Source: Myxococcus sp. (GTDB lineage: Bacteria; Myxococcota; Myxococcia; Myxococcales; Myxococcaceae). From it: 34,037 nt of DNA. The stretch spans positions 1-34,037 of the forward strand of contig JACSRE010000209.1 in NCBI GenBank assembly GCA_014879945.1, given 5' to 3'. Positions 1 through 34,037 of this stretch are shown here, piece by piece; position 1 is the stretch's first letter, and each line of letters begins with the position of its first letter. The translations under genes were made by a program, and so were the position numbers. The notes beneath the pieces are model-generated. The model saw only the letters and a program-made list of their open reading frames with translations, had not been told where the DNA came from and did no database searches.

Positions 1-19
1 AGATGTGTATAAGAGACAG
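1..19 (+). other. Nextera/Tn5 mosaic-end adapter (artefact)
   Basis: The first 19 bases are exactly the Tn5 mosaic end AGATGTGTATAAGAGACAG used in tagmentation libraries. They are library sequence and not part of the genome. Translated, they give the familiar contaminant peptides MCIRDS and MYKRQ, so any protein predicted to start here has a false N-terminus. Confidence 0.97.
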
Positions 20-57
20 CTCGACGGTCGCCCGCCCTCGAGCGGGCGACCGTCGAG
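20..57. repeat. 16-bp inverted repeat directly after the adapter
   Basis: Arms 20-35 and 42-57 are perfect reverse complements of each other, separated by a 6-base spacer (CCTCGA). The repeat abuts the adapter, so it may be a fold-back (chimeric) read end. A natural GC-rich hairpin inside the truncated gene is also possible, because the reading frame stays open through it. Confidence 0.85.
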
Positions 58-618
58 CTCGCGCTGGCCGGCGCCGTGGTCGAGCCGGGCCTGCTCGTGC
101 GCGCGGAGGTCGCGCTGGGCCGGGTGCGCCGGGGCGCCGCCGGGGCCCGCCAGCTCGGAGCGCTGCAGCTCGACCTCGTCGCGCTGCAGGTCGCGCTCCA
201 GACGGGCGAGCCGCGCGGTCGGCTGCGGGCCCGCCTGAGCGCCGGGAAGGACGTCGTGGTGCGCCAGGCGCTGGAGCGCCTGTCGCGACACCCGCAGGCG
301 CGCCTGAAGGCCGAGGCAGAGCTGGCGCGCGTCGGCGGCGACGCGCCGGTGGAGGCGCTCGAGTACCTCGGCCAGGTCGTCAAAGAGGCGGCGCGGCTGC
401 ACCCGGTCGAGGGGTTCGCGGTGCCGCATCAGGCCTGGCGACACGCGCAGGCGTTCGACCCCGCGCGCTTCGCCGGCGACCACCGCCGAACGGACTTCGA
501 GCTCGAGGCGATCGCCTTGCTCGCGGGCGTGCTGCGGCGGGCCCGGGTCGACCTGCGCGCGGGCTTCGTCGCGGGCCCCCGCCGGGGCCTCGAGGTGCGC
601 GTCGTGCCGCGCGCGTGA
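40..618 (+). CDS. Hypothetical protein, 5' truncated
   Basis: This is the C-terminal part of a protein of unknown function. The frame is open back into the adapter-adjacent inverted repeat, so the true start lies off the contig; the GTG at 76 is only the first possible start codon. Coding is supported by third positions that are nearly all G or C across about 190 codons. The product is rich in Ala, Arg, Leu and Val, with alternating charged and hydrophobic residues but no motif I recognise, and it has no obvious membrane segment. It converges on surE, whose stop lies 75 bases away. The first residues may be corrupted if the inverted repeat is artefactual. Confidence 0.55.
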   Translation, partial: ERATVELALAGAVVEPGLLVRAEVALGRVRRGAAGARQLGALQLDLVALQVALQTGEPRGRLRARLSAGKDVVVRQALERLSRHPQARLKAEAELARVGGDAPVEALEYLGQVVKEAARLHPVEGFAVPHQAWRHAQAFDPARFAGDHRRTDFELEAIALLAGVLRRARVDLRAGFVAGPRRGLEVRVVPRA

Positions 619-693
619 AGGTTCGCCAGGCGTCAGCTCAGGGCCCAGGCCCAGCGCGCCGGCCGCAGCGGAGGCGTCGTGGTGACGCGCCTG

Positions 694-3946
<3,253 letters not shown>

Positions 3947-33412: not shown

Positions 33413-34000
33413 ATGTCGACTTCGCGGGCTCCAGTGAACGAAGAGGAGTTCCTCTCGGCGCTCTACAAGGGTGGAGAGCTGCTCGCGGCGGGGAAGATCG
33501 TCGAGGCGCGGTCGCACCTCGAGACGGCCAGCCAGCTCGCGCCGAAGAACGAGAAGGCCCAGAACCTGCTCGGGCTCACCTACTTCAAGCTCGGGCTGTT
33601 CGATCAGGCCTCTGACATCTACGAGCGGCTGGTGCGTGAGAACCCGGCCGACCCGACGCTCCGGGTCAACCTCGGCCTGGTGTACCTGAAGACCAACAAC
33701 CTGCCCCGGTGCATCAAGGAGTTCGAGACCGCCACCGATCTCGAGCCCGATCACAAGAAGGCCCACAACTACCTCGGCCTCGCCCTCGCCCAGGCCGGTG
33801 ACTACGCGAAGGCGCGGGAGCACTTCGTGCTGTCGGGCAGCGAGCAGATGGCCGAGAAGATGGCGCGCGCCTTGACGACGAGGGTCGAGAGCTCGCCGTC
33901 GAGCCACGGCATGGTCGTGCCCCCGCCACCGGCCGCCACCGCGCAGGCCGTCACCGCGCAGCCGGCCCAGCTGGTCACCCCCAAGCCCTCGGGGCCGCCC
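33413..34000 (+). CDS. TPR-repeat protein, 3' truncated
   Basis: The N-terminal 196 codons of a tetratricopeptide-repeat protein are present. Repeats run from about residue 13 to 145: AGKIVEARSHLETASQLAP, NLLGLTYFKLGLFDQA, NLGLVYLKTNNLPRCI and NYLGLALAQAGDYAKA carry the usual TPR small/aromatic pattern. A Pro/Ala/Thr/Gln-rich linker then begins (PPPPAATAQAV), so a further domain probably lay beyond the contig. AAGGGA precedes the ATG. Genomic sequence ends at 34000; the peptide LSLIHI that would follow is adapter-encoded. The 15-base spacing after the transglycosylase suggests an operon. Confidence 0.88.
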
Positions 34001-34037
34001 CTGTCTCTTATACACATCTGACGCTGCCGACGACGGA
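34001..34037 (-). other. Nextera read-1 adapter read-through (artefact)
   Basis: CTGTCTCTTATACACATCT (34001-34019) is the mosaic-end complement, followed by GACGCTGCCGACGA, the rest of the reverse complement of the Nextera read-1 adapter. The last four bases (CGGA) are probably the start of an index. In frame with the TPR gene it encodes LSLIHI, which is not part of the protein. Confidence 0.97.

Follow-up and report, generated by a model that had tools for sequence, protein, structure and literature searches.

In Nextera and Nextera XT libraries, the adapters contain a 19-base element, the hyperactive Tn5 mosaic end, and the read-1 and read-2 adapters diverge directly after this 19-mer. The trimming sequence of the read-1 side is given in PMC3906532, the sequence of the i5 primer S511 in PMC7757419. 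The window, i.e. the whole stretch of 34,037 nucleotides that was analysed, corresponds to contig C22 in a 448-contig assembly (G000), and its last 37 bases proved to be identical to such an adapter. These bases (34001-34037) are leftover Illumina Nextera library adapter and not bacterial DNA, which makes them an ordinary assembly error.

Identity of the right contig end

Direct reading of the window gives the tail as CTGTCTCTTATACACATCTGACGCTGCCGACGACGGA, which comprises three consecutive adapter parts (Table 1). The second of these, GACGCTGCCGACGA, is matched by the read-1 trimming sequence from PMC3906532. The i5 index of primer S511 reads TCTCTCCG, corresponding to CGGAGAGA as reverse complement. 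When the mosaic end was joined to the S511 primer, as printed in PMC7757419, and the product was reverse-complemented, a sequence of 70 bases resulted, the first 37 of which equal the window tail in 37 of 37 positions. The initial annotation, which had read the right end as Nextera read-1 read-through adapter plus index, thus agrees with the adapter base by base. Its assignment of the last four bases to the index holds as well: CGGA follows the read-1 adapter in 18 of the 56 contig ends that carry the 19-mer, and the five of these 18 with longer tails continue with the remainder of one index. With up to three mismatches allowed, the 19-mer showed two matches in the window, one per end, and at the same tolerance none was obtained in 100 shuffles of the window.

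Table 1. Features at the two ends of the window.
Feature	Position	Strand	Basis or remark
Tn5 mosaic end, adapter, left contig end; contains the false ATG (3-5) of ORF 3..815	1..19	+	
Perfect 16-base inverted repeat with 6-base loop, adjoining the left adapter	20..57	.	probable fold-back chimera
TPR protein gene, genuine 5' part, 196 codons, severed by the contig end	33413..34000	+	TPR families in Pfam; orthologues
Tn5 mosaic end, reverse complement, adapter	34001..34019	+	exact 19-mer
Spurious C-terminus LSLIHI and stop codon, adapter-derived	34001..34021	+	translation
Remainder of the Nextera read-1 adapter, reverse complement, GACGCTGCCGACGA	34020..34033	+	equals trimming sequence in PMC3906532
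First four bases of the reverse-complemented i5 index CGGAGAGA	34034..34037	+	longer tails, S511 primer, prefix test

It is practically certain that the tail is untrimmed Nextera (Tn5 tagmentation) adapter which was reached by read-through into the S511 i5 index. A library fragment would have ended at window base 34000, and a read exceeding its insert in length would have continued through the mosaic end and the read-1 adapter into the S511 index. With the reads left untrimmed or incompletely trimmed, the assembler would have extended the contig end with adapter, next to some 1.3 kb that stayed unbridged. Both the read-through step itself and the reason for the unbridged stretch are what we infer here.

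Distribution of the adapter

The adapter screen of the assembly that the initial annotation had suggested yielded 56 copies of the mosaic-end 19-mer. All 56 lie at most 54 bases from a contig end and none is internal, so that the adapter, continued by its read-1 or read-2 side, occurs in many unrelated places and at contig ends only. Two contigs, C22 and C39, carry it on both ends. The read-1 side follows the 19-mer in 23 of the 56 ends and the read-2 side in 8, one end showed a read-1 continuation with one additional base, and 24 terminate directly after the 19-mer. Since the two adapters diverge at exactly this point, the assembly graph would fork there, which would be a natural reason for the 24 stops.

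Five tails are longer than that of the window, and all five continue with GAGAGT..., the remainder of the same index; two of them, the longest, extend into P5, up to ...GTAGATCTCGG. A library-wide i5 index followed by P5 is therefore found via the longer tails, the window tail itself showing four index bases only. Thirteen of the 56 tails (L004 and 12 of L041-L082), that of the window included, end at exactly 37 bases, after the fourth index base. A fork within the index is not supported as the cause of these 13 stops, because the five longer tails of the assembly continue alike. In other genomes, the 33 longer matches among those listed all begin with G or GAGA, which also speaks against such a fork.

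The same observations bear on a genuine Tn5 insertion (IS50 or engineered EZ-Tn5 type), where the mosaic end would represent the tip of a transposon in the TPR gene. This explanation can draw on the 19-mer being the hyperactive Tn5 mosaic end, and on papers that contain 19-mer-derived peptides such as CLLYTS and DVYKRQ and apparently used transposon insertion. However, what follows the 19-mer is read-1 adapter plus a known i5 index and not transposon sequence, and the exclusive position of the 56 copies at contig ends, with read-1 and read-2 sides mixed, does not fit either. With regard to a 9-base target duplication, no two of the 56 ends showed a complementary 9-mer. Since adapter and index instead of a transposon body lie beyond the mosaic end, a Tn5 insertion as a biological event is rejected, and we assign it a negligible probability.

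Adapter was also found outside of the assembly. In genome contigs, the 37-mer was detected in at least 110 stretches with at least 112 matches, at contig ends of unrelated bacteria; this count demanded all 37 bases. Among the 80 rows listed, 79 come from one batch of MAG records, which have contig-70_ names and accessions beginning with JACSR or JACSS and belong to many bacterial groups; the remaining row is an Aromatoleum isolate. Nothing follows the 37-mer in 79 of the 112 matches listed, the other 33 carrying further bases; 18 or fewer such bases were counted for 110 of the 112 and more for two. In one genome contig (L210), the 37-mer is followed by 6070 bases, and this internal adapter is likely a chimeric join.

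Viral contigs contained the adapter 33-mer in at least 120 matches, and 95 of the 120 listed have at least 8 further bases. The following 8-mers in these 95 comprise 11 kinds, none of them CGGAGAGA, which is what libraries with other indices would be expected to show. In the viral contig L229, the read-1 adapter lies mid-contig at 2154-2186, followed by index and N bases, and is a residue left at a scaffold join.

On balance, we lean towards the view that the window assembly and the JACSR and JACSS MAGs stem from one metagenome batch, S511-indexed and untrimmed, so that many contig-end proteins there would carry false adapter-coded termini. The window's share in this batch is a guess, and the scan of genome contigs may omit the window's own records.

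The interrupted TPR gene

The open frame at the right end (33413-34021) encodes 202 residues ending in ...PSGPPLSLIHI. As LSLIHI is the frame 1 translation of the mosaic-end 19-mer, the predicted C-terminus is artificial, as had been stated in the initial annotation; the stop codon TGA (34019-34021) also lies within the adapter. The TPR gene itself is genuine but cut off, and its real sequence stops at 34000.

A search with the TPR protein gave matches in 60 of 60 genomes, counting the own genome, with TPR paralogues among them. The best five relatives belong to the same genus and matched with 83-91% identity on the protein level, as far as residue 196 or close to it; a sixth same-genus genome showed 65%. 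Four full-length readings from the same genus (G002, G003, G004 and G006) comprise about 840-910 residues, compared to 196 genuine codons in the window, which bears out the truncation that had been claimed. These four orthologues continue with other, longer sequence, some 650 residues beyond the window part; this comprises an extended linker with a high content of proline, glutamine and acidic residues and, at the C-terminus, a conserved domain. A relative with the 37 bases in its TPR gene would have pointed in the opposite direction. The 19-mer was absent from all 59 relatives searched, six of which share the genus and the remainder the family or order, and none of the 29 orthologue loci (L010-L038) contained 12 or more bases from the start of the tail on either strand. 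The local alignment to one relative (L012) enters the adapter by 7 bases, with a gap, which is compatible with chance.

When the G004 protein, starting near residue 190, was searched in the own genome, only one match was obtained (C427:4-675), with 88% identity to the last 224 residues. The stretch C427:1-675 also matched AIM24 (PF01987, E 6.8e-9). Collinearity of C427 extends over 5.5 kb with G002 and over 3.8 kb with G004, in each case to the end of the compared stretch. Based on this match and the collinearity with the relatives, the break is an assembly gap inside one gene. C427:1-675 is the real 3' end of the TPR gene, with the AIM24 domain. According to the coordinates of the relatives, the gap from the end of C22 to the start of C427 amounts to 1.3 kb (G004) to 1.4 kb (G002). 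For the middle part of about 1.3 kb, no contig of the own assembly matched the G004 protein, and a low-complexity stretch can escape such a search. A second full copy of window 33700-34000 was not found in the own genome, so no overlap leads to a neighbouring contig.

That the adapter is correctly recognised and the TPR gene nevertheless truly ends near 34000, with only a few residues being false, would suit the window alone, where the open frame stops at 34021, and is hardly conceivable given the additional length of the same-genus orthologues and the collinear 3' end on C427.

The left contig end

The initial annotation covered the right end only; bases 1-19 of the window are adapter as well. 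The frame 3..815 starts with the adapter ATG, its protein begins with MCIRDS, and no Pfam match was obtained for it. Directly adjoining the adapter, the arms 20-35 and 42-57 form the only perfect hairpin in the window that has a stem of at least 12 bases and a loop of 3-30. Perfect hairpins of at least 10 bases in the 100 bases preceding the adapter were observed in two of the 56 ends, namely the left end of the window and L067. The hairpin 20-57 is probably a fold-back chimera, and positions 20-41 may not be genomic in their present order.

In the left part of the window, the five listed same-genus relatives match only from about 680-710 onward. Positions 112-602 matched the same G002 contig at 74%, but some 4.3 kb away, and the gene content therefore differs in window 20-693.

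Discussion

Nothing at 34001-34037 is biology, and there is no biologically new reading of these bases. The relevance is limited to curation: positions 1-19 and 34001-34037 should be trimmed, and the TPR product should be labelled as partial, with no stop and with the residues after 196 removed. The ATG within the left adapter is false and should not serve as a start codon. Furthermore, the adapter-coded peptides LSLIHI, CLLYTS, DVYKRQ and MCIRDS can mislead searches for conserved terminal peptides.

Compared to known systems, the interrupted gene resembles a TPR protein with a C-terminal AIM24 domain, the TPR repeats lying in the window part and AIM24 in the C427 part; it differs in that a low-complexity linker of about 1.3 kb, as judged from the relatives, is absent from the own assembly. 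The tail itself shows no difference to the Nextera and Nextera XT read-through adapter, i.e. the reverse complement of i5 S511 plus the Tn5 mosaic end: it is identical over its whole length, lies at a contig end and ends after the fourth index base, and on other contigs of the own assembly the index continues as expected.
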